Assembly: GCF_014084045.1 (NCBI RefSeq)
Contig: NZ_CP043732.1
Location: 2,418,001-2,482,000, forward strand
Direction of reading: 5' to 3'
DNA: 64,000 nt
Source of the DNA: Microbacterium esteraromaticum
Lineage (GTDB): Bacteria; Actinomycetota; Actinomycetes; Actinomycetales; Microbacteriaceae
Numbering within the stretch: the first letter of the stretch is position 1; every line of letters starts with the position of its first letter. A model generated the notes under the pieces. It was not told the DNA's origin, made no database searches, and saw only the letters and a list, made by a program, of their open reading frames with translations. The translations under genes were made by a program, and so were the position numbers. Below are positions 33,663 through 45,820 of the stretch, piece by piece.

Positions 33663-36419
<2,757 letters not shown>

Positions 36420-36633: not shown

Positions 36634-38262
36634 TCAGTCCTTGGAGGACTGGATCAGCGACGGCGCGACGGCGCTGCTCAGCGTGAGCTCGTCGTTCGCC
36701 CCGAAGGTCACTGTCTCGCCGGTGATGCGATCCTGCAGCCACTTGGCCAGGAACAGCACACCCACCATCAGGTAGGAGACGAGGAACAGCACGTGCGTGT
36801 CGCTCAGCGCGAACGCGTCAGGCAGACCGGGCACGCTGTCGTGGATCACGCCGAAGAGTGACAGGATCCCGGCGAGGGCGCTGATGATCGCGCCCTGAAG
36901 GGGCAGGTTGCGGATCGCGAAGATCGCGATCATGCCCCACAGCAGCGACGACAGCGGTGCGCCGTTGCCCAGCGCGGCGATGCCGGTGAAGTAGGTGCCT
37001 GCGCCGTTGAGCGCCTCGGCCCCGACTTCGGCCGCATTGGTGCCGACCGACTTCAGCGTGTTGTTGATCAGGCTGTTCGCCCAGTTCGCGATCCACGGGA
37101 AGAGCGCGACGAAGATGACGGGCAGCTCCACCTTCGGCGTCTCGCGCACCGACTGCGCGGCGGTGACGATGCCGATGTAGATGAGGATCGGCGCGATCGC
37201 GGCCATCGGCACGATCGACAGCAGCAGCGCGCTCATGCCGAACAGACCGACGGCGAACATCGTGATGCCGTTGAGCATCGTGTAGCCGATGCCCGCGCCC
37301 ATCTCCTTGTATGCGGTGTGTCCGATGTACACCGTCACGGGGTACGGGTTTCCCATCAGCGCGCCGACCATGGTCGCTCCGCCGTTCACCAGCATGACCG
37401 GACGAGCGCTGTAGTGGTCGCCCGCCGCCTCTGCGGCCTCGATGTTCTCGAGGTCGAAGACGTAGTTGGCGAGAGCCAGCGGTACAGCCGAGGCCAGGAA
37501 CGGAGCCGAGTGCGCGATCCCGTCGAAGAAGCTGCCGATCGACACCTGCGGCGGGTGCCAGCCCGCGTGCACGAGTGCGGCCTGGACGGCTTCGGGCGTC
37601 TGCAGCCCGAACGCCCATGCGGCCGCCGTGCCGACGATGAGCAGCAGCAGCCCGGTGGGGACCTTGCCGAGGAACGGCGCGCGGCCGAACCAGTTCATGA
37701 AGACGATCACCAGCACGAGGAAGGCGACCACGGGGAACTGGAAGCTCTGCAGCATCGGGTTCATCGCCAGCAGCAGCAGGCCGAGACCGGCGAGGCAGGC
37801 GAGCAGCACGGAGCGAGGCACGGCGCGGCGCAGAAGGTCTCCGAAGAACGAGCCGACCACGAGGATCAGTCCTTCGAGGAAGCCCCAGACCAGACCGATG
37901 CCGACAGCCAGCTCGGCGTCCTGCGTCGTCGAGTACACGGGCAGGATGACGAGGAACGTCACCGTGAAGATCGACGGCGCGCTCGGTCCCGACGGGAGCG
38001 CCACGACGTCGCCGCGGCCCTCCTTCGCCGCGAGCCGTCGGGCGAACCAGACGTACATCGACGATGTGATCAGGATCGCGAGACCGAACGCGGGCGCGAT
38101 GCGCCCGACGACCATGTCCACGGGCAGACCGGCCATGGTGAGCAGCGCCGTGAAGGTGATGATGTTCGTGAGGTTGTTGGTGAACAGAGCGAAGAAGGCG
38201 GCGATGTCGCCCTTCTTCCACCACTTCAGCTGGGTGCCCGCTGCGGGGGCGGCGGCGGTCAC
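36634..38262 (-). CDS. NCS2/AzgA-like purine-type permease in oxalurate/oxamate cassette
   Basis: A 542-residue protein with 12-14 hydrophobic helices and the nucleobase-cation-symporter-2 look: FALFTNNLTNI, ALPSGPSAPSIFTV, NYVFDLENIEAAEAAGD and NGGATMVGALMGNPYPVTVYIGH, cited as the region around residues 290-315. Such proteins import purines, xanthine or related ureides. Its GTG start overlaps the stop of the DUF1116 gene (GTGA), so it is co-made with the FdrA set and probably brings in the compound they break down, for example allantoin, oxalurate or oxamate (inference). It is the last gene of the operon and is followed by a hairpin. Confidence 0.82.
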   Translation of the reverse strand: MTAAAPAAGTQLKWWKKGDIAAFFALFTNNLTNIITFTALLTMAGLPVDMVVGRIAPAFGLAILITSSMYVWFARRLAAKEGRGDVVALPSGPSAPSIFTVTFLVILPVYSTTQDAELAVGIGLVWGFLEGLILVVGSFFGDLLRRAVPRSVLLACLAGLGLLLLAMNPMLQSFQFPVVAFLVLVIVFMNWFGRAPFLGKVPTGLLLLIVGTAAAWAFGLQTPEAVQAALVHAGWHPPQVSIGSFFDGIAHSAPFLASAVPLALANYVFDLENIEAAEAAGDHYSARPVMLVNGGATMVGALMGNPYPVTVYIGHTAYKEMGAGIGYTMLNGITMFAVGLFGMSALLLSIVPMAAIAPILIYIGIVTAAQSVRETPKVELPVIFVALFPWIANWANSLINNTLKSVGTNAAEVGAEALNGAGTYFTGIAALGNGAPLSSLLWGMIAIFAIRNLPLQGAIISALAGILSLFGVIHDSVPGLPDAFALSDTHVLFLVSYLMVGVLFLAKWLQDRITGETVTFGANDELTLSSAVAPSLIQSSKD

Positions 38263-39683
38263 GGCTTCACCGTGTCTGCAAGGGCGCGCAGCGCCTTCTG
38301 GAACGCCTCCACCGGCGGGTGGGTGATGCCTGCGCCGATCATGCCTATGCCGGGCTCTTTATGAGCGATGGCGGTGTTGATGACGGGCAGGATCCCGGTC
38401 TCCATCACCTTGCGCACGTCGATGCCGGAGGGGACGCCCATGAAGTCGAGCGCAGGGATCGTGATGTTCGGGTTGTTGCCCGTCGTGATCGCGTTCATCG
38501 TGCGCGAGTATCCCATCGCCTCGTCGACTGTTCCGCCGACGAGCGCGACGATCGCGGGGGCTGCGGCCATGGCGAAGCCGCCGATGCCGAACGTCTCGGT
38601 GATGGCCGAGTCGCCCATGTCGAGCCCTGAGTCGTCGCGGGTGTATCCGGCGAACATCGGGCCGATCACCTCCTGGGCCGGTCCAGTGAACCACTGTCCG
38701 CCCGTGCCCGCGACGCGGATGCCGAACTCGACCCCGTTGCGCGCCATCGTCGTGACGATGGTCGAGTTCTCGACGCCGTTCGCCGCATCCATGGATGCCT
38801 TGGCGGCGACCATCCAGGTCGGGCCTGAGAAGTAGTCGGATGAGGCGACGAAGTCGAAGACCTCGCGCTTCTCCTTCGTCGTGAAGTCGGTCTCCAGGAT
38901 GTACGGGGCGAGCGCCTGGATCAGCAGCGTCGTGCCGGCGACATTGCGGTTGTGCGCCTCGTCGCCCATGTGCAGCGCCTGCGAGAGCATCAGCCGGAGG
39001 TCGAGACCGTCCTCGTTCAGTGCCATTGCGGCCGACAGGATCGGGCCGAACACGTCGCGCATCCAGTTGAGCCGGTCGATCACCGACTGGTCGTTGGCGC
39101 CGAAGCGCAGGATCTTCGACAGCTGCTCAGACAGGTTGGTGAAGGCGGTGTTGCCGTGCGTGCGGTTGGTGACCTTGTGCACCCACATGCTCGCGCTGGT
39201 CACTCCGGCCATCGAGCCGACGGACTGGTGCTCGTGGCACGGCGAGAAGGTGATCTCACCCGACGCCGCGAGCTCGAACGCCTCGTCGATGTCCTTCGCG
39301 AGGCCCTCGAAGACCAGTGCGCCGGTGACGGCGCCCTTCATGGGGCCGGACATCCGGGTGAACTCGATGGGGGGTCCGGCGTGCAGGATCGTCTTGGCCG
39401 TCATGCCCGGCACGGTGTCGATCGCCTGACCGAAGCCCTCGAGGAACGGCTGAGCCGACAGGATGCGATCGAGAGCCACCTGGTTCGCGGCGTCGATGCG
39501 CTCGGCGACTGCGGGGTCCTCGAGACGGCTCAGCGCGGCGATCACGTCGGGGTCGCCGCCGCCGGGCGGGGTCCAGTCCATCAGGACCGGGTCGACGCCC
39601 TGCTTCTTCAGGTCGTCGGCGAACATGTCGAGGCCGAGGTTGACCGGCTTCAGGTTCGCGGAGAACAGGTCGTTGACGCTCAT
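38259..39683 (-). CDS. DUF1116 protein, AllG/YlbE-like carbamoyltransferase subunit
   Basis: A 474-residue DUF1116 protein, similar in plan to E. coli YlbE (AllG). In E. coli, AllG, AllF (FdrA) and AllH form oxamate carbamoyltransferase, which turns oxalurate and phosphate into oxamate and carbamoyl phosphate. Visible landmarks are DWTPPGGGDPDVIAAL near the N-terminus, HAGPPIEFTRMSGPMKGAV, a CHEHQSVGSMAGVTS motif with Cys and two His, and NPNITIPALDFMGVP-like NNPNITIPALDFMGVP near the C-terminus. It is joined by ATGA to fdrA upstream and by GTGA to the permease downstream. Substrate here is inferred from context, not shown. Confidence 0.83.
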   Translation of the reverse strand: MSVNDLFSANLKPVNLGLDMFADDLKKQGVDPVLMDWTPPGGGDPDVIAALSRLEDPAVAERIDAANQVALDRILSAQPFLEGFGQAIDTVPGMTAKTILHAGPPIEFTRMSGPMKGAVTGALVFEGLAKDIDEAFELAASGEITFSPCHEHQSVGSMAGVTSASMWVHKVTNRTHGNTAFTNLSEQLSKILRFGANDQSVIDRLNWMRDVFGPILSAAMALNEDGLDLRLMLSQALHMGDEAHNRNVAGTTLLIQALAPYILETDFTTKEKREVFDFVASSDYFSGPTWMVAAKASMDAANGVENSTIVTTMARNGVEFGIRVAGTGGQWFTGPAQEVIGPMFAGYTRDDSGLDMGDSAITETFGIGGFAMAAAPAIVALVGGTVDEAMGYSRTMNAITTGNNPNITIPALDFMGVPSGIDVRKVMETGILPVINTAIAHKEPGIGMIGAGITHPPVEAFQKALRALADTVKP

Positions 39684-41233
39684 CAGTTGTCACCCTTCGC
39701 GACGAATTCGCGGGCCAGCAGCCCGAGGTTGGTTGAGGAGGAGGCGATCGTGACCCCGGCCGCCTCGAGCTGGGCGATCTGCTCGCCGATCGCAGGGGTG
39801 TCGAGGTCGGTGCCGAGCACGTAACCGAGGATCTCGAGGTGGTGACCGCGTTCGGCGGCGATAGCCTTCGCCTCGGTGATCGCGGGGATCGTGACGCCGA
39901 CCGGGTCGGCGTGTGCGCCGAAGCCGAGTACGAAGTCCATCGCGATGACGCCGACCGACGGGTCCTTGGCCTCTTCCACGATCCGCTGCAGGCGCAGCGA
40001 CGGGTCGATCATCGGGTGCGGGCGGCCGTTGGTGAAGTCGTCGTCGCCCATGTCGAGGAACGTGTGCTCGCGCGAGTCGTCCATGGCCCCGATCCGGTAC
40101 GCCGGGTCCTTCTGGATGTTCGAGTACACGTTGTCGTACTTCGCCAGCGCGGCGAACATCGACTCGTCGCACAGGGTTCCGCCGCAGAACAGGCCGCGCA
40201 CGTACTTCTGCTCCGGGGCCAGCTTGGCTCGCACCTCTTCGATGAGCGGGATGTTCAGCGGGTGCTTGTCGAGGGTCGACTCGTCGATGCCAGAGGCGAC
40301 GACCGCGGCGATCGCGAGCGGCTTCGTGCCTGCGGTGACCATCGTGACGTTGTCGTACCCCGACTCGGTGCGGTCGGAGCCGAGGAAGGTCACGAAGACG
40401 GGCTTGGACGCCTGCCCCGCCACCTCGAGCACCTTCGCGGCGACGTCCTCCGCCGGTGGCTTGGAGATGACGACGATGACGGAGGTCTCGGGATCGGCGT
40501 CGAGGGCGCGGATGCCGTCGATCATCGAGATGCCGCCGATCTCGGTGCTCAGGTCGCGCCCGCCGGTGCCGATCAGCTGCGAGACGCCGCCGCCGAAGTC
40601 GTGGATGCGGACGGAGACCTCCTGGCTGCCGGTGCCCGAGGCGCCCACGATGCCGATGCTGCCGCGACGCACGGCGTTGGCGAAGGCCAGGCCGGTGCCG
40701 TTGATGATCGCGGTGCCGCAGTCCGGGCCCATCACGATAAGGCCCTTCTCGTGCGCGAGGGTCTTGAGCGCGAGCTCATCCTCGACCGAGACGTTGTCCG
40801 AGAAGATCATCACGTTCTTGCCGGCGTTCAGCGCCTTGCGCGCCTCGCGGGCGGCGAATGCGCCGTTGACCGAGATGATCACGAGGTTCGTGTCCGGTGC
40901 CTCGTGGAAGGCGCCGTCGAGGGTGCGGTAGCGCACCTCCTGGGCATCCGCGGCCTCCCTGTCCTTGCGGGCGAGGATGTCGTCGACGGCGGCGATCGCC
41001 GCTTCGAGCGCGTCGTCCGCGGCGTCGATGACGATCATGAGGTCGCTGGGGCGGGCCTCGTCGATCGCGGGATCGTCGACGCCGACGCCAGCGAGCACCT
41101 CCTTGTTCATCGGGGTCGCCATGCCGAGCAGGGCCTGGGTGACGCCGTCGACGGCGTTCGCCTTGGTGCTCATGGACATGAGCGAGACCGAGTCGAGGTA
41201 CGTGTTCTTCCTGATTTCGATGTGTCTGGTCAT
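39683..41233 (-). CDS. fdrA: FdrA/AllF-like acyl-CoA-synthetase-fold carbamoyltransferase subunit
   Basis: A 516-residue FdrA-family protein with two domains related to succinyl-CoA synthetase. The first has IRKNTYLDSVSLM and a DPAIDEARPSDLMIVIDA segment; the second has the nucleotide-type loop GIVGASGTGSQEVSV, then LIGTGGRDLSTEIGG, and a region FCGGTLCDESMF. In E. coli the homologue (AllF) belongs to the oxalurate-to-oxamate carbamoyltransferase. It overlaps the DUF1116 gene by ATGA and follows the ankyrin gene with a 19-base gap. AAAGGAC stands before the ATG. Confidence in family is high, in the precise reaction moderate. Confidence 0.86.
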   Translation of the reverse strand: MTRHIEIRKNTYLDSVSLMSMSTKANAVDGVTQALLGMATPMNKEVLAGVGVDDPAIDEARPSDLMIVIDAADDALEAAIAAVDDILARKDREAADAQEVRYRTLDGAFHEAPDTNLVIISVNGAFAAREARKALNAGKNVMIFSDNVSVEDELALKTLAHEKGLIVMGPDCGTAIINGTGLAFANAVRRGSIGIVGASGTGSQEVSVRIHDFGGGVSQLIGTGGRDLSTEIGGISMIDGIRALDADPETSVIVVISKPPAEDVAAKVLEVAGQASKPVFVTFLGSDRTESGYDNVTMVTAGTKPLAIAAVVASGIDESTLDKHPLNIPLIEEVRAKLAPEQKYVRGLFCGGTLCDESMFAALAKYDNVYSNIQKDPAYRIGAMDDSREHTFLDMGDDDFTNGRPHPMIDPSLRLQRIVEEAKDPSVGVIAMDFVLGFGAHADPVGVTIPAITEAKAIAAERGHHLEILGYVLGTDLDTPAIGEQIAQLEAAGVTIASSSTNLGLLAREFVAKGDN

Positions 41234-41252
41234 CGTCGTCCTTTCGGGTCTG

Positions 41253-41861
41253 TCAGGCCTGGTGGTTCTCGAGGATCGCGACGATCTCGTCGTAGCCGCG
41301 CTCGCGGGCGAGGTCGGCGGGGGAGGTGCCCCACGGGTCGGGCATGCCGGGCTTGGCGCCGTGTGCGAGCAGGAGCTCGACGATCTGCTGCCGCACGGGT
41401 CCGCCGTCGCCGAGGATGATCGTCTCGATGAGCGCGGTCCAGCCGAGGTTGTTGGTGAGGTTCACGTTGATGCGGGTGTTCTCGAGCAGGTAGCGCACGA
41501 CCTCGAGGTGACCCTTCTCGGCCGCGGGGGTCAGGCCGTTGCCGCCCATGCGGGTCAGGCGCTTGAGGTCGGCACCCGCCTCGGCCATCATCTTCACGAG
41601 CTCGAGCTGGTCGTTGATGCAGCCGAACAGGAACGGGTTCGAGCAGGTCTGATCCTGGGCATCGATGTCCACGCCCTCGGCGATGAGCGCGCGCACGACA
41701 TCGAGGTGTCCGCCGCGTGCGGCCAGGAGGATGGCCGTGGCCTCCTCGCGGTCGACCGCGTCCTTGTCGGCGCCCTCGGCGAGGGCGGCCCTGACGCCTT
41801 CGAGGTCTCCTGCGGCGGCGCTGTCGAGGTAGCGCTCGTCGATCGTGCGTGCAGTGCTCAT
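41253..41861 (-). CDS. Ankyrin-repeat protein inside the FdrA operon
   Basis: A 202-residue protein made of about five ankyrin repeats, seen as AAAGDLEGVRAALAEGADKDA, then REEATAILLAARGGHLDVVRALI, NGLTPAAEKGHLEVVRYLL and WGTSPADLARERG. No signal peptide or membrane helix is present, so it acts in the cytoplasm, most likely as a protein-binding part. Its start overlaps the stop of the DUF2877 gene (ATGA) and it precedes fdrA by 19 bases, so it is made with the carbamoyltransferase subunits. A role as assembly or regulatory factor of that complex is inference. E. coli has no such gene in its version. Confidence 0.85.
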   Translation of the reverse strand: MSTARTIDERYLDSAAAGDLEGVRAALAEGADKDAVDREEATAILLAARGGHLDVVRALIAEGVDIDAQDQTCSNPFLFGCINDQLELVKMMAEAGADLKRLTRMGGNGLTPAAEKGHLEVVRYLLENTRINVNLTNNLGWTALIETIILGDGGPVRQQIVELLLAHGAKPGMPDPWGTSPADLARERGYDEIVAILENHQA

Positions 41862-42796
41862 CGATGATCTCCTTGATCGGATGGGATTGGTCGGATGTGG
41901 GATGCGGCGAGCACGACGCCCAGGCGGATGCCGGTGAGGATGTCGTGCCCGGAAGTGTGGCCGATCTCGGCGGTGCCGGCGACGGCGGTGCGCAGAGCGG
42001 CAGCATCGCCCGAGATGACAGCGTCCATCAGGTCGTGCATGCGCCGGCGCGCCCTTCCGCCGAGCGCTGCGCGCAGCGTGACCTCGCTCAGCTGGGTCGT
42101 GCGGCGGTGGGCGGTCGCGGCGGCGGCGCGCAGAGGAGCGAGCAGCGTGCTCAGCCCGAATCCGGGATGCGCGGCGACGAATGCGAGACCGGTGAGCACG
42201 TCGTCGCCTGACGGCGTCAGCCCCTCGCCCAGCCCGAGAAGCCGCTCGGCGGCCGCGGCGGTCGCGTCGGCGGCGTCGGGTGCATCCGTCGCGATCAGTT
42301 CTCGGGCCGAGGCCTGCAGTCGGTGGATGCCTGCCGCGAGGGCGTCGGCCGCGAGAGCGCCGAATGGCGTCGTGGCGGCGGGGGAGGGCACGGCGTCCAG
42401 CACGGCGCAGGCGCCGCGGAGCGAGTCGGTCGAGGGGATGCCCGTGGTGGCGCCGAGCACGCGGCGGTCGCGAGGGTCGAGGACGATGCGAACCTCGTCG
42501 TCCGCGGGACGCAGCACGACGGCATCGTCGGCGAGGAGCACATCGTCGCCTGCCCGTGCGGATGCGACGGCCGGCCAGTCCCGCTCGGAGATGCGGACGG
42601 TCCAGGGCGCGTCGTCCAGGCGCTCATGAGCGAGTGCGATGAGCGCGGCCCCTCGACGGATGTTGACCACGCTCCGGTGCACGGAGTGCACGGCGACGCC
42701 GACGGCGGGGGCATCGCTGCCGCCTGAGAGCGTCTCCTCAAGCGCAGCATCCCAGGTGTGCGCGCGAAGCGCGACAGGGGTGGCGACGGGGGTCAT
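41858..42796 (-). CDS. DUF2877 protein, AllH/YlbF-like carbamoyltransferase subunit
   Basis: A 312-residue DUF2877 protein, counterpart of E. coli YlbF (AllH), third subunit of the oxalurate/oxamate carbamoyltransferase. The family core LLGLGEGLTPSGDDVLTGL is at about residues 200-218 and is well kept; a weaker GHTSGHDILTGIRLG repeats the idea near the C-terminus. It is the first gene of the five-gene minus-strand operon. I chose ATG 42796, which has GGAGAGAAG just upstream; an open frame before it runs into the operator region. It diverges from the carbamate kinase gene across a 146-base region with a palindromic operator. Confidence 0.82.
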   Translation of the reverse strand: MTPVATPVALRAHTWDAALEETLSGGSDAPAVGVAVHSVHRSVVNIRRGAALIALAHERLDDAPWTVRISERDWPAVASARAGDDVLLADDAVVLRPADDEVRIVLDPRDRRVLGATTGIPSTDSLRGACAVLDAVPSPAATTPFGALAADALAAGIHRLQASARELIATDAPDAADATAAAAERLLGLGEGLTPSGDDVLTGLAFVAAHPGFGLSTLLAPLRAAAATAHRRTTQLSEVTLRAALGGRARRRMHDLMDAVISGDAAALRTAVAGTAEIGHTSGHDILTGIRLGVVLAASHIRPIPSDQGDHR

Positions 42797-42868
42797 CGTC
42801 TTCTCTCCGAGGCATCCGGGCCGCCCGTGGTGACAGTCGGACGGATGCTGTGAAATGTCTTCGGTATA

Positions 42869-42896
42869 GGTATACCATTTGTGCAAATGGAATACC
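42869..42896. promoter_or_regulatory. 28-bp palindromic operator between the two cassette arms
   Basis: GGTATACCATTTG and CAAATGGAATACC flank a TG centre with only one mismatched pair, in an otherwise GC-rich region. A related half GGTATA lies just before it at 42863. It sits midway between the divergent DUF2877 and carbamate kinase starts, so one regulator could control both arms. The GntR protein encoded at 43932 is the natural candidate. Confidence 0.65.
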
Positions 42897-42942
42897 ATCC
42901 ATGAATCTGGAGTACCAGCTCAGCCTCAACAAGGGAGACAGA

Positions 42943-43896
42943 ATGCGCATCGTGGTGGCACTGGGTGGAAACGCCCTCGCACGTCGTGGCGAGCCGATGA
43001 CCGCCGAATACCTGCGGGCCAACGTCCGCTCCACCTGCGAGGCCCTCGCCGCCCTGGCGAGCGAGAACGAGATGGTCATCACGCACGGCAACGGCCCCCA
43101 GGTCGGTCTGCTGGCGCTGCAGAACCTCGCCTACCAGGACGTGGCCGCCTACCCGCTCGACATCCTCGGCGCAGAGACCCAGGGCATGATCGGATACGTC
43201 GTGCAGCAGGAGCTCTCCAACGCGCTGAACGGCGCACGCGAAGTGGCCGGCATCATCACCACCACGGTGGTCGACGAGTCCGATCCCGCGTTCGAGCGCC
43301 CCACCAAGCTCATCGGCCCGCAGTACTCGGCGCACGACGCCGCCGAGGCGGCTGCCGAGTACCGCTGGACCATCGCCAAGGACGGCAACGCGTTCCGGCG
43401 CGTCGTCCCGTCGCCCGATCCGCTGTCGATCGTCCAGGCGCCGCTGATCCGCCGACTGCTCGAGGCCGGCAGTCTCGCCGTCTGCGTCGGCGGTGGCGGT
43501 GTCCCCGTTCGCATCGACTCGAAGGGGCGTCATGTGGGCGTGCAGGCCGTGGTCGACAAGGACCTCGCGTCGGCAGCGCTCGCGGCCGACATCGGCGCGG
43601 ACGTCCTCATCATGCTCACCGACGGCGACTACGTCAGCGAGAACTGGGGCACACCCGAGCAGCGTGACATCCACACCGCGTCGGCAGACGCTGTCGCCGC
43701 GATGACGTTTGCCGAGGGGTCCATGCAGCCCAAGATCGACGCAGCCATCCGCGTCGCTCGTGCGGGCGGTCGCGCCCTGATCGGGCCGCTCGACCGTCTC
43801 GACGACCTGCTGGCGCGTCGCATCGGCACCGAGATCGTGCCGACCCTCAAGGAGGGGATCCGCTGGGTCGAGAGCGCCCCGACGAAGTCCGCCTGA
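42943..43896 (+). CDS. arcC: Carbamate kinase (ArcC/AllK type)
   Basis: A 317-residue carbamate kinase, which makes ATP from carbamoyl phosphate and ADP, releasing ammonia and CO2. Typical segments are VVALGGNALARRGEP at the start, ITHGNGPQVGLLALQ, AVVDKDLASAALAADIGAD and LTDGDYVSENWGTPEQ. The upstream frame is open, but ATG 42943 after AAGGGAGAC gives the standard N-terminus. No arginine deiminase or ornithine carbamoyltransferase gene is nearby; the partner appears to be the divergent FdrA/DUF1116/DUF2877 set, as for E. coli YbcF (AllK). This suggests energy gain from a carbamoylated substrate. Confidence 0.93.
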   Translation: MRIVVALGGNALARRGEPMTAEYLRANVRSTCEALAALASENEMVITHGNGPQVGLLALQNLAYQDVAAYPLDILGAETQGMIGYVVQQELSNALNGAREVAGIITTTVVDESDPAFERPTKLIGPQYSAHDAAEAAAEYRWTIAKDGNAFRRVVPSPDPLSIVQAPLIRRLLEAGSLAVCVGGGGVPVRIDSKGRHVGVQAVVDKDLASAALAADIGADVLIMLTDGDYVSENWGTPEQRDIHTASADAVAAMTFAEGSMQPKIDAAIRVARAGGRALIGPLDRLDDLLARRIGTEIVPTLKEGIRWVESAPTKSA

Positions 43897-43931
43897 CCCG
43901 ATCCGAGCACGTGAGGTGCGAGGATGAACCT

Positions 43932-44618
43932 GTGAGCAGAGCAGACGACCGCGGACTGGAATCCGGCAGGGTCGCGTCGTGGCTGCGCGACGCCATCCTC
44001 GACGGGGTCCGCGAACCCGGCAGCAAGCTGATCGAACGCGATCTCGCCAGCGAGTTCGGCGTGAGCCGTGTCCCGGTGCGCGACGCGCTCAAGGTGCTCG
44101 AGGCCGAGGGGCTCGTCGAGCTGCGTCCTCGCACCTGGGCGATCGTCCGGGAGTTCACGGCTGCAGACCTCGCCGATCTCGACGAGGTGCGCCAGGTGCT
44201 GGAGCCGATGGCCTTCCGGCTCGCGGCGGAGCGCCATCGGCGAGACGGTCTGGACAGGCTTCAGCTGGCTCTGCACGAGGAGCAGGACAGCGCGGCGCAG
44301 GACGACCCGATCGTCTCCCGCCGTGCCGCCGCGGACTTCCATGAGATCGTCGTCGAGCTGGCGGACAACAGACTGCTCATGGCGCTCATGCAGAGCATCC
44401 GCAGCAGGCTGCGCTGGTCGCTCGTGCAGCACGACGACCTGGTGCACATCGCCGACGAGCATGTCGCCCTGTTCGAGGCGATCCGCGACAGGGACGGCGA
44501 CAGGGCGAGCGAACTCGCCTACGCTCACGTCGACAGCAGCCGCCGCGAGCGGCTGTCGCATGCGGCATCGCTGCACGCCGCCCCGGTATCCTTGCGAGAT
44601 GACCCGCCGCACCCTTGA
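43932..44618 (+). CDS. GntR family (FadR/FCD subfamily) transcriptional regulator
   Basis: A 228-residue regulator with an N-terminal winged helix (GSKLIERDLASEFGVSRVPVRDAL, cited as residues 27-50, and LEAEGLVELRPRTWAIV) and a C-terminal helical FCD ligand domain with metal-type His/Asp positions (ADFHEIVVELADN, DEHVALFEAI, YAHVDSS). FCD proteins often answer to small carboxylates, which suits oxalurate, oxamate or glyoxylate as effectors (inference). GTG 43932 with GAGGA upstream is preferred over GTG 43911. It follows carbamate kinase by 35 bases and overlaps the aminotransferase start by 20 bases, so it probably belongs to the plus-strand arm of the cassette and binds the 28-bp palindrome. 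Confidence 0.85.
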   Translation: MSRADDRGLESGRVASWLRDAILDGVREPGSKLIERDLASEFGVSRVPVRDALKVLEAEGLVELRPRTWAIVREFTAADLADLDEVRQVLEPMAFRLAAERHRRDGLDRLQLALHEEQDSAAQDDPIVSRRAAADFHEIVVELADNRLLMALMQSIRSRLRWSLVQHDDLVHIADEHVALFEAIRDRDGDRASELAYAHVDSSRRERLSHAASLHAAPVSLRDDPPHP

Positions 44619-45820
44619 CCAGTCGTCGAAGCTGAGGAACGTCCTCTACGAGATCCGGGGCAAGGCTCTTCTCGAGGCGGCCCGTCTCGAGGCCGAGGGC
44701 CACCAAATCCTCAAGCTGAACACGGGCAACCCCGCCACCTTCGGCTTCGAGGCCCCGCACCAGATCGTGCGCGACATGCTGGCCGCCCTGCCGACGGCCC
44801 ACGGGTACAGCGACAGCAAGGGTGTGATCACGGCCCGACGCGCAGTCGTCAGCCGCTACGAGGAGGTCGAGGGCTTCCCGCGCTTCGACCCCGACGACGT
44901 CTTCCTCGGCAACGGCGTCTCCGAGCTGATCACGATGGTCATGCAGGCCCTGCTCGATGAGGGCGACGAGGTGCTGATCCCTGCGCCGGACTACCCGCTG
45001 TGGACGGCGATGACCTCGCTCGCGGGCGGAACGCCCGTGCACTACATCTGCGACGAGGAGAACGGCTGGCAGCCTGACCTCGAGGACGTGCGCTCGAAGG
45101 TGACGCCGCGCACCAAGGCGATCGTCATCATCAACCCGAACAACCCCACCGGCGCGGTGTACTCGCGGGAGGTGCTCGAGGGACTCGTGCAGATCGCCCG
45201 CGAGAACGAGCTGCTGCTGCTCTCTGACGAGATCTACGATCGCATCCTGTTCGACGACGCGCAGCACATCCCGACCGCCACTCTCGCGCCCGATCTGCTC
45301 TGCCTCACCTTCAACGGGCTGTCCAAGACCTACCGGGTCGCCGGCTACCGCTCCGGATGGCTGGTCGTCACCGGCCCGAAGTCGCACGCACGAGGATTCC
45401 TCGAGGGCATCACGCTGCTGGCGTCCACTCGCCTGTGCCCGAACGTCCCCGCGCAGTACGCCGTGCAGGCGGCTCTGGGGGAGTGCAGTCGATCGATGCG
45501 CTGATCGCGCCGACCGGGCGCCTTCACGAGCAGCGCGACATCGCCTGGACCGGGCTCGAGGCCATCCCCGGAGTGAGCTGCGTGAAGCCGGAGGGTGCGC
45601 TCTACGCGTTCCCTCGGCTCGACCCGAGGTGCACGAGATCCGCGACGACGAGAAGCTGGTGTACGACCTCCTCGTGTCCGAGAAGATCCTGCTCGTGCAG
45701 GGCACCGGGTTCAACTGGGCGACGCCGGACCACCTCCGGGTGGTCACGCTGCCCGAGGCGCGTGTGCTCAGCGAGGCCGTCGAGCGACTCGGGAACTTCC
45801 TCTCGAGCTACCGGCAGTGA
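44599..45820 (+). pseudogene. alaA: Alanine aminotransferase AlaA-type, two frameshifts
   Basis: The encoded PLP enzyme closely follows E. coli AlaA: SSKLRNVLYEIRGKALLEA, LNTGNPATFGFEAP, IINPNNPTGAVYS and the PLP lysine in NGLSKTYRVAGYRSGW. Two single-base losses break it. At the G run 45477-45481 the frame shifts after AVQAALG, and the sequence continues one frame lower as GVQSIDALIAPTGRLHEQR. At the C run 45624-45626 a second shift follows FPRLDP, then EVHEIRDDEKLVYDLL leads to the stop at 45820. With both bases restored the protein has 407 residues and no missing part. Two losses in one conserved gene, both in homopolymers, suggest sequencing error. The last 53 bases overlap the convergent MinD-like gene. 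Confidence 0.88.

Follow-up and report, generated by a model that had tools for sequence, protein, structure and literature searches.

The 64,000-nucleotide stretch of the Microbacterium esteraromaticum genome analysed here (hereafter the window; assembly GCF_014084045.1, contig NZ_CP043732.1, positions 2,418,001 to 2,482,000) contains, at its positions 36634–44618, a tight divergent unit of seven genes that probably serves to break down an imported urea-like compound to make ATP. In the order of transcription, the five minus-strand genes encode a DUF2877 (AllH-type) protein, an ankyrin-repeat protein, an FdrA (AllF-type) protein, a DUF1116 (AllG-type) protein and a permease; the two plus-strand genes, transcribed divergently, encode a carbamate kinase and then a GntR/FCD regulator. 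The features, in window coordinates, are as follows.

36634–38262, minus strand: permease, 542 aa, last gene of the operon; named after its homologues, with no Pfam, NCBIfam or PDB match
38259–39683, minus strand: DUF1116/AllG-family subunit, YahG orthologue, 474 aa; PF06545, 297 bits; PDB 3clq, 669 bits
39683–41233, minus strand: FdrA/AllF-family subunit, YahF orthologue, 516 aa; NF004760, 476 bits (cut-off 433); PDB 3dmy, 283 bits
41253–41861, minus strand: ankyrin-repeat protein, YahD orthologue, 202 aa; PF12796, 112 bits
41858–42796, minus strand: DUF2877/AllH-family subunit, YahE-like, 312 aa; PF11392, 84 bits
42867–42898, between the divergent genes: predicted GntR operator, two imperfect TGGTATACCA copies as an inverted repeat
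42943–43896, plus strand: carbamate kinase, 317 aa; PF00696, 84 bits; PDB 8crv, 312 bits
43911–44618, plus strand: GntR-family regulator with FCD domain, 235 aa; PF00392, 60 bits, and PF07729, 80 bits

The AllH-type gene overlaps the ankyrin gene by 4 nt, the AllF-type gene overlaps the AllG-type gene by 1 nt and the latter overlaps the permease gene by 4 nt, with 19 nt between the ankyrin and AllF-type genes. The start of the DUF2877 gene was set by a codon model and alignment (the longest open reading frame reaches 42898), and that of the kinase by alignment to PDB 8crv, whose match begins at residue 31 of the long frame starting at 42850; the codon model places this start at 42901. Curated cut-offs are exceeded by every component of the core enzyme and also by the ankyrin and regulator proteins, so that chance matching is of no concern for the cassette enzymes; the permease has no such match. 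The FdrA protein carries coenzyme A (CoA)-binding and CoA-ligase domains, and the kinase also matches PDB 1e19 (229 bits). Family matches and strands bear out the DUF2877, FdrA and DUF1116 proteins, the carbamate kinase and the GntR regulator of the initial annotation, which named these genes correctly and missed the ankyrin gene at 41253–41861, leaving the set incomplete. Its description of the carbamate kinase as divergent holds for the direction of transcription only: the protein is an ordinary carbamate kinase, 49% identical to Escherichia coli AllK, and the idea of an unusual sequence was rejected on its close match to solved carbamate kinases (8crv, 312 bits).

E. coli K-12 has two gene sets that are relevant here. 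The all set (fdrA/allF, ylbE/allG, ylbF/allH and ybcF/allK) adjoins allE-allC-allD. The yah set, located elsewhere in that genome in the order yahD-E-F-G-H-I-J, includes genes for an ankyrin protein (yahD), a DUF2877 protein (yahE), an FdrA-like protein (yahF), a DUF1116 protein (yahG), a carbamate-kinase-like protein (yahI) and an amidohydrolase (yahJ). The AllG-like protein of the window is 69.9% identical to YahG (670 bits) as against 46.1% to AllG (362 bits), the AllF-like protein is 60.9% identical to YahF as against 38.4% to AllF, and the ankyrin protein is 49.2% identical to YahD. For the AllH-like protein the identity is 26.7% to YahE over 270 residues (70 bits) and 35.7% to AllH over 112 residues (42 bits). 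On these comparisons the core of the cassette, together with its ankyrin gene, is assigned to the Yah type, orthologous to yahDEFG. The kinase (49.2% identical to AllK, 37.9% to YahI) is not specially of this type; the nearest kinase reference varies among the relatives of YahG described below, and a YahI-type kinase was taken as a variable accessory and not as a defining gene.

The tree was built from 82 DUF1116 proteins, namely those of 78 of 80 genome loci (L059 and L083 were left out as short), the window protein, YahG, a plasmid homologue and E. coli AllG. A search with the AllG-like protein of the window confirmed 113 loci, of which the best 80 were used, so that the sample leans towards close relatives; their genes were called with a home-made codon-usage caller and not taken from curated annotation. 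The window protein and YahG share a clade of 58 entries (the Yah clade) with a support of 100/100, and pairwise identities agree with this split. The equation of the three subunits with AllH, AllF and AllG, proposed in the initial annotation, was rejected by both the pairwise identities and the tree: the orthologues are YahE, YahF and YahG, joined by YahD, which has no counterpart in the all operon.

The cassette nevertheless contains all three subunit families of AllFGH (NF004760, PF06545 and PF11392). E. coli AllFGH was shown in 2024 to be an oxamic transcarbamylase, with FdrA as part of a carbamoyltransferase and oxamate carbamoyltransferase activity measured (PMC11326118). The all genes had been proposed as candidates in the CanOE paper (PMC3364942), and YgeW is another phosphorolytic carbamoyltransferase (Life Metab 2025, PMC12507026); no functional study of yahD-G was found in the open-access literature searched. 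Among the positions conserved both in the Yah clade and in the other group, 98 of 114 in DUF1116 are identical in E. coli AllG and 87 of 93 in FdrA are identical in E. coli AllF. A G-x-G-x-GLTP-x-x-DD core, followed further on by a G-x-x-SG-x-D motif, is common to the DUF2877 proteins, including E. coli AllH (26 sequences). In the confidently predicted AllH structure (predicted local distance difference test score, pLDDT, 92.5), both motifs pass from a loop into the start of a helix, a geometry that might form an anion site. The conserved AllF and AllG positions and the DUF2877 motifs common to the E. coli proteins support chemistry of the AllFGH type, and since most of these positions match E. 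coli AllF and AllG, carbamoyl phosphorolysis feeding the carbamate kinase is the best-supported chemistry. At the same time, 17 DUF1116 positions are diagnostic between the clades; E. coli AllG bears the residue of the other group at 13 of these, including an Arg in place of Gln256 of the Yah clade. We regard these diagnostic positions as candidates for a change of substrate.

A YahD-type ankyrin gene lies within 5.2 kb of DUF1116 in 45 of the 58 Yah-clade entries versus none of 24 outside the clade. Of 42 loci with this gene, 39 carry it on the same strand as DUF1116, and in 38 a neighbour on its own strand lies no more than 60 nt away. Its product has up to 230 aa in 30 of these 42 loci and is longer in the other 12; in all 11 long proteins scanned (L035 was left out), TPR repeats follow the ankyrin repeats, and such fusions occur in Bacillota and Pseudomonadota. 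On the DUF1116 tree the presence of the gene needs 8 changes, which means that it was lost or gained several times. Each of the five core genes found a match in 19 of the 27 nearest loci; averaged over these 19, identity to the window is 91.2% for the kinase, 90.7% for AllG, 86.1% for AllF, 83.9% for the ankyrin protein and 43.6% for AllH, so that conservation of the ankyrin protein comes close to that of the catalytic subunits AllF and AllG. The DUF2877 subunit evolves far faster than these partners (84–91%). Where the ankyrin protein has a long match (23 loci in all), its median identity is 83.2% and the minimum 46.1%; 32 of its positions, including W141, E146 and G153-G154, are conserved in at least 93% of 45 entries. 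We infer that the ankyrin protein is a subunit or a physical partner of the complex. The terms 'ankyrin' and 'DUF1116' occur together in no paper of the open-access literature searched. In Microbacterium sp. SYP-A9085 there is a second GntR-ankyrin-FdrA stretch (L044:18416-20902) about 9 kb from the main set; its FdrA frame is short (343 aa), and it is perhaps a decaying second cassette.

In the gap between the divergent genes, two TGGTATACCA-like boxes form an inverted repeat, with 13-nt arms that are 92% complementary. With up to two mismatches, the 11-nt motif has four hits in the 64-kb window, each of the two boxes being counted once per strand, and 5 of 100 shuffles reached this number. 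Among 32 relatives whose kinase is of the window type and divergent, 28 have the 10-nt TGGTATACCA box in the gap with at most one mismatch (nine of them exactly), and in the remaining four the best box has 2, 2, 2 and 5 mismatches, the last of these in a gap of just 25 nt. When each gap was shuffled 100 times, at most 4 shuffles matched the real box in 31 loci and 81 did so in the locus with the 25-nt gap; for the gap of the window, 2 of 200 shuffles were as good as the real box. The GntR protein presumably binds this box.

For the permease, searches of Pfam (up to E = 10), NCBIfam (at E ≤ 0.001 and ≤ 0.0001) and PDB sequences (up to E = 1) all gave no match. The search found 270 homologues, and the named ones are mostly called xanthine permease, adenine/guanine/hypoxanthine permease or hypothetical protein; PF00860 was present in one of the 120 homologues listed. 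Profile comparison with hhalign gave a 14.8% probability for a set of six NCS2 sequences versus 0.5% for a set of seven NCS1 sequences, the profiles being shallow in both cases. The label 'NCS2-like' given initially is a tentative one, drawing on the homologue names, the single PF00860 match and this weak profile match. On an E. coli plasmid, a protein 56% identical to the permease is encoded between the genes for DUF1116 and carbamate kinase, and 24 of 57 Yah-clade loci have a window-type permease no more than 8.5 kb from DUF1116.

The surroundings of the same 57 loci were surveyed for selected neighbours (matches over half of the query, within 8.5 kb). An allantoin-permease-like NCS1 protein was present in 13 loci and a cytosine-permease-like one in 15; a small PF00383 deaminase was found in 12, of which 11 also had the allantoin-permease-like protein. 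Four loci had a RutB/BiuH-like isochorismatase, nine a PucR regulator and four a YahJ-like amidohydrolase (in one case with no more than 28% identity); a ring-opening amidohydrolase was found in none of the 57. The partner families come from scans of representatives, and the names allantoin permease, cytosine permease, RutB and BiuH, being below cut-offs, indicate kinship only. In many Yah-clade loci, including the window, no upstream enzyme was seen. This survey of selected neighbours, the kind of search that the initial annotation had suggested might tie the genes to an unrelated pathway, turned up transporters of the nucleobase or ureide type together with deaminases, isochorismatase-like hydrolases and PucR regulators. 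These partners fit ureide metabolism without singling out one compound. Since they and the related plasmid sets described below share the theme of nucleobase or triazine breakdown, which would yield acylureas, the substrate is probably an acylurea.

Several known systems resemble the cassette. The E. coli K-12 yahD-yahJ operon likewise brings together ankyrin, DUF2877, FdrA-type, DUF1116 and carbamate-kinase-type genes, although its order is ankyrin-AllH-AllF-AllG (AllH-ankyrin-AllF-AllG in the window), there is no annotated permease between yahD and yahJ, and K-12 has a nearby LysR-type regulator gene, yahB, and the YahJ amidohydrolase, the window having a permease and a GntR gene; the kinase of the window is closer to AllK. 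The allFGHK genes of E. coli share with the window the three subunit families, the carbamate kinase and most conserved positions, but they fall into a separate clade, lack an ankyrin gene and lie beside allC, allD and allE. The E. coli plasmid p1540-4 (other plasmids gave similar matches) carries ankyrin, DUF2877, FdrA, DUF1116, permease (56% identical to that of the window) and carbamate kinase genes in a row, on one strand and in another order than in the window, with no GntR gene among the 11 features listed in its incomplete gene table. In nitrifiers, the allFGHK set (mSystems 2025, PMC12625717) combines carbamoyltransferase and kinase without upstream purine genes, as in the window, and the genes shown include a GntR gene and a cytosine permease; unlike in the window, a biuret hydrolase is present, and the word 'ankyrin' does not occur in the main text of that paper. 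Plasmid sets of Klebsiella and Citrobacter have the same core genes as the window, with DUF1116 proteins 51% and 49% identical, but they lie next to a ring-opening amidohydrolase and have no ankyrin gene in the listed annotation. In these (L104:4735-15125 and L106:2451-11381), the FdrA-DUF1116-carbamate kinase genes accompany the ring-opening enzyme, which matches PF09663 in the Klebsiella set, and this suggests carbamoyl phosphorolysis of biuret or ureidomalonate.

Taken as a whole, the cassette is rather likely to be a Yah-type carbamoyltransferase unit with its own permease, ankyrin partner, carbamate kinase and GntR switch. The permease would import a small compound with an acylurea group (R-CO-NH-CO-NH2) or a close precursor; the complex of FdrA-, DUF1116- and DUF2877-type subunits, partnered or assembled by the ankyrin protein, would use phosphate to split it into an amide and carbamoyl phosphate; the carbamate kinase would convert carbamoyl phosphate and ADP to ATP, ammonia and CO2; and the GntR protein would switch both divergent transcripts at the TGGTATACCA operator. 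This explanation starts from features read from the sequence itself, namely the gene content and its coupling, the orthology with yahDEFG, the shared conserved positions and the box that is conserved in the divergent promoter. The initial idea of a self-contained set of transporter, carbamoyltransferase and kinase beside one regulator, possibly with a substrate other than that of E. coli, is likewise favoured by family membership, operon structure and conserved positions.

Several observations weigh against this explanation. The 17 clade-diagnostic AllG positions could alter the chemistry as well as the substrate, and the open-access literature searched contained no biochemistry of any Yah-type complex. 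The kinase of the window is nearer to AllK than to YahI, its AllH-like subunit is only 27% identical to YahE, and the exact place of E. coli AllG in the tree is unsure because of its very long branch. No ankyrin gene was detected within 5.2 kb in 13 of the 58 Yah-clade entries; in some of these the contig ends too early (L024, L050), but a clade of seven actinobacterial entries (L041, L044, L047, L052, L055, L056 and L058) lacks it near DUF1116, so that the gene is not strictly required. Short contigs also soften its absence from all 24 entries outside the clade: at least 4.4 kb upstream of DUF1116 is available in 17 of 23 outside loci and in 53 of 57 Yah-clade loci, and 5.2 kb on both sides in 9 of 23 versus 49 of 57.

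The substrate could still be that of AllFGH, with the Yah clade as a merely divergent branch of plain oxamate carbamoyltransferases supplied with oxalurate from outside or from within the cell. The same three subunit families and carbamate kinase, most of the conserved AllF and AllG positions and, elsewhere in this single-contig genome of 3.37 Mb, genes for uricase, HIU hydrolase, OHCU decarboxylase, allantoinase and an AllE/UGLYAH2-type protein all speak for this. We nevertheless consider it unlikely, given that E. coli K-12 holds both sets, which is hard to explain if their function is identical, that the operon partners differ, and that 13 of the 17 diagnostic AllG positions, including Arg versus Gln256, have the residue of the other clade in E. 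coli AllG. Furthermore, the genome has no match to PF02615, the family of AllD, which catalyses the step before oxalurate in E. coli (controls including E. coli were detected), although an unrelated dehydrogenase could take its place. It also has no match to the AllA family (PF04115) and no convincing match to urease alpha; with AllD, AllA and urease families thus unaccounted for, an internal source of oxalurate is not evident. The same gaps bear on a service to the organism's own urate and allantoin pathway, in which the carbamoyl group would come from ureidoglycolate or another intermediate and nitrogen would be recovered without urease: the genes from uricase to AllE are present, the two genome matches to M20 hydantoinase/carbamoylase-type proteins are both under the cut-off, and no other fate of ureidoglycolate is evident. 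Such a service appears improbable, however, as uricase, allantoinase and AllE are encoded about 1.47 Mb away on the same contig, the cassette has its own permease and regulator, and ureidoglycolate is not an acylurea. DUF1116 is, besides, patchily distributed, being found in only 4 of 59 genomes of the genus, 5 of 150 of the family and 49 of 396 of the phylum (this genome counted each time). The distant allantoinase also limits the initial statement that allantoinase is missing, which holds near the cassette and fails genome-wide; no allantoinase, ureidoglycolate dehydrogenase or urease was found among the Pfam-scanned reading frames of the window, which all lie between 26.4 and 56.8 kb and include some in the wrong frame.

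Least probable of all, in our view, is a complex running in the making direction with carbamoyl phosphate supplied by the kinase, or one acting on a non-carbamoyl substrate, for instance as an acyl-CoA synthetase. FdrA is annotated as such a synthetase and has CoA-binding and CoA-ligase domains, and the E. coli enzyme was assayed from the side of oxamate and carbamoyl phosphate (PMC11326118); yet the same work places FdrA in a carbamoyltransferase, and across lineages the gene sets co-occur with importers and with PucR or GntR regulators, which points to breakdown.

Within the favoured explanation of a Yah-type breakdown unit, a bolder proposal can be put forward only tentatively: the Yah clade might be a second, four-component carbamoyl-phosphorolysing enzyme that has an ankyrin protein of its own and attacks some acylurea different from oxalurate, so as to harvest ATP in bacteria from Actinomycetota to E. 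coli K-12. Its substrate would perhaps be uncharged, such as biuret, given Gln256 in place of the Arg on the AllG side. If this is true, these bacteria gain ATP from an unrecognised environmental ureide. In any case, the comparison ties an actinobacterial cassette to yahDEFG of E. coli K-12, genes so far unexplained, and adds a conserved ankyrin component to the carbamoyltransferase set. Together with the AllFGH work of 2024, it gives the yah genes a testable chemistry, phosphate-dependent carbamoyl transfer, for which the partners across phyla suggest a short list of candidate ureides. A caution also follows for annotation, since proteins labelled 'oxamate carbamoyltransferase subunit' belong to more than one clade, and the substrate may not be the same in each.

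The cassette is flanked by a SecA-like gene (33684–36416, plus strand) and an aminotransferase gene (44599–45817, plus strand). The same flanks were found in 14 of 17 Microbacterium loci; of the other three, two are on contigs of less than 5 kb and one (L044) has neither flanking gene. The cassette thus occupies a fixed chromosomal site in Microbacterium, though DUF1116 occurs in so few genomes of the genus. The aminotransferase gene of the window is frameshifted, since its alignment to the 407-aa relative from L005 breaks into three segments that lie in different frames, and it is either a pseudogene or an assembly error; in 13 other Microbacterium loci the match is a single piece of 402–407 residues.

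Related gene runs were seen in several other replicons. In some Microbacterium relatives (L007:6523-15147), cytosine-permease-like, window-type and allantoin-permease-like transporters, a PF00383 deaminase and the core genes form one run. One related plasmid set from E. coli has an isochorismatase and a cytosine permease, and DUF1116/FdrA-type genes with an isochorismatase have been described in regions of pathogenic E. coli (PMC12928451, PLoS One 2026; PMC3349570, BMC Microbiol 2012). A Peptoclostridium plasmid (L112:4817-15420) has in one run PucR, two genes named xanthine permease, isochorismatase, DUF2877, FdrA, DUF1116 and carbamate kinase. On the atrazine plasmid pADP-1 and an Agrobacterium plasmid (L105:8001-10554 and L110:8001-10848), atzC follows a DUF1116 remnant and a carbamate kinase, which is the yahG-yahI-yahJ order, and atzC may have its origin in an operon of this kind, although the DUF1116 proteins nearest to the remnant are those outside the Yah clade. 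Finally, in Arachnia (Propionibacteriaceae), a heliorhodopsin gene (L048:4902-5747, minus strand; PF18761, 317 bits) adjoins the carbamate kinase gene of the cassette.

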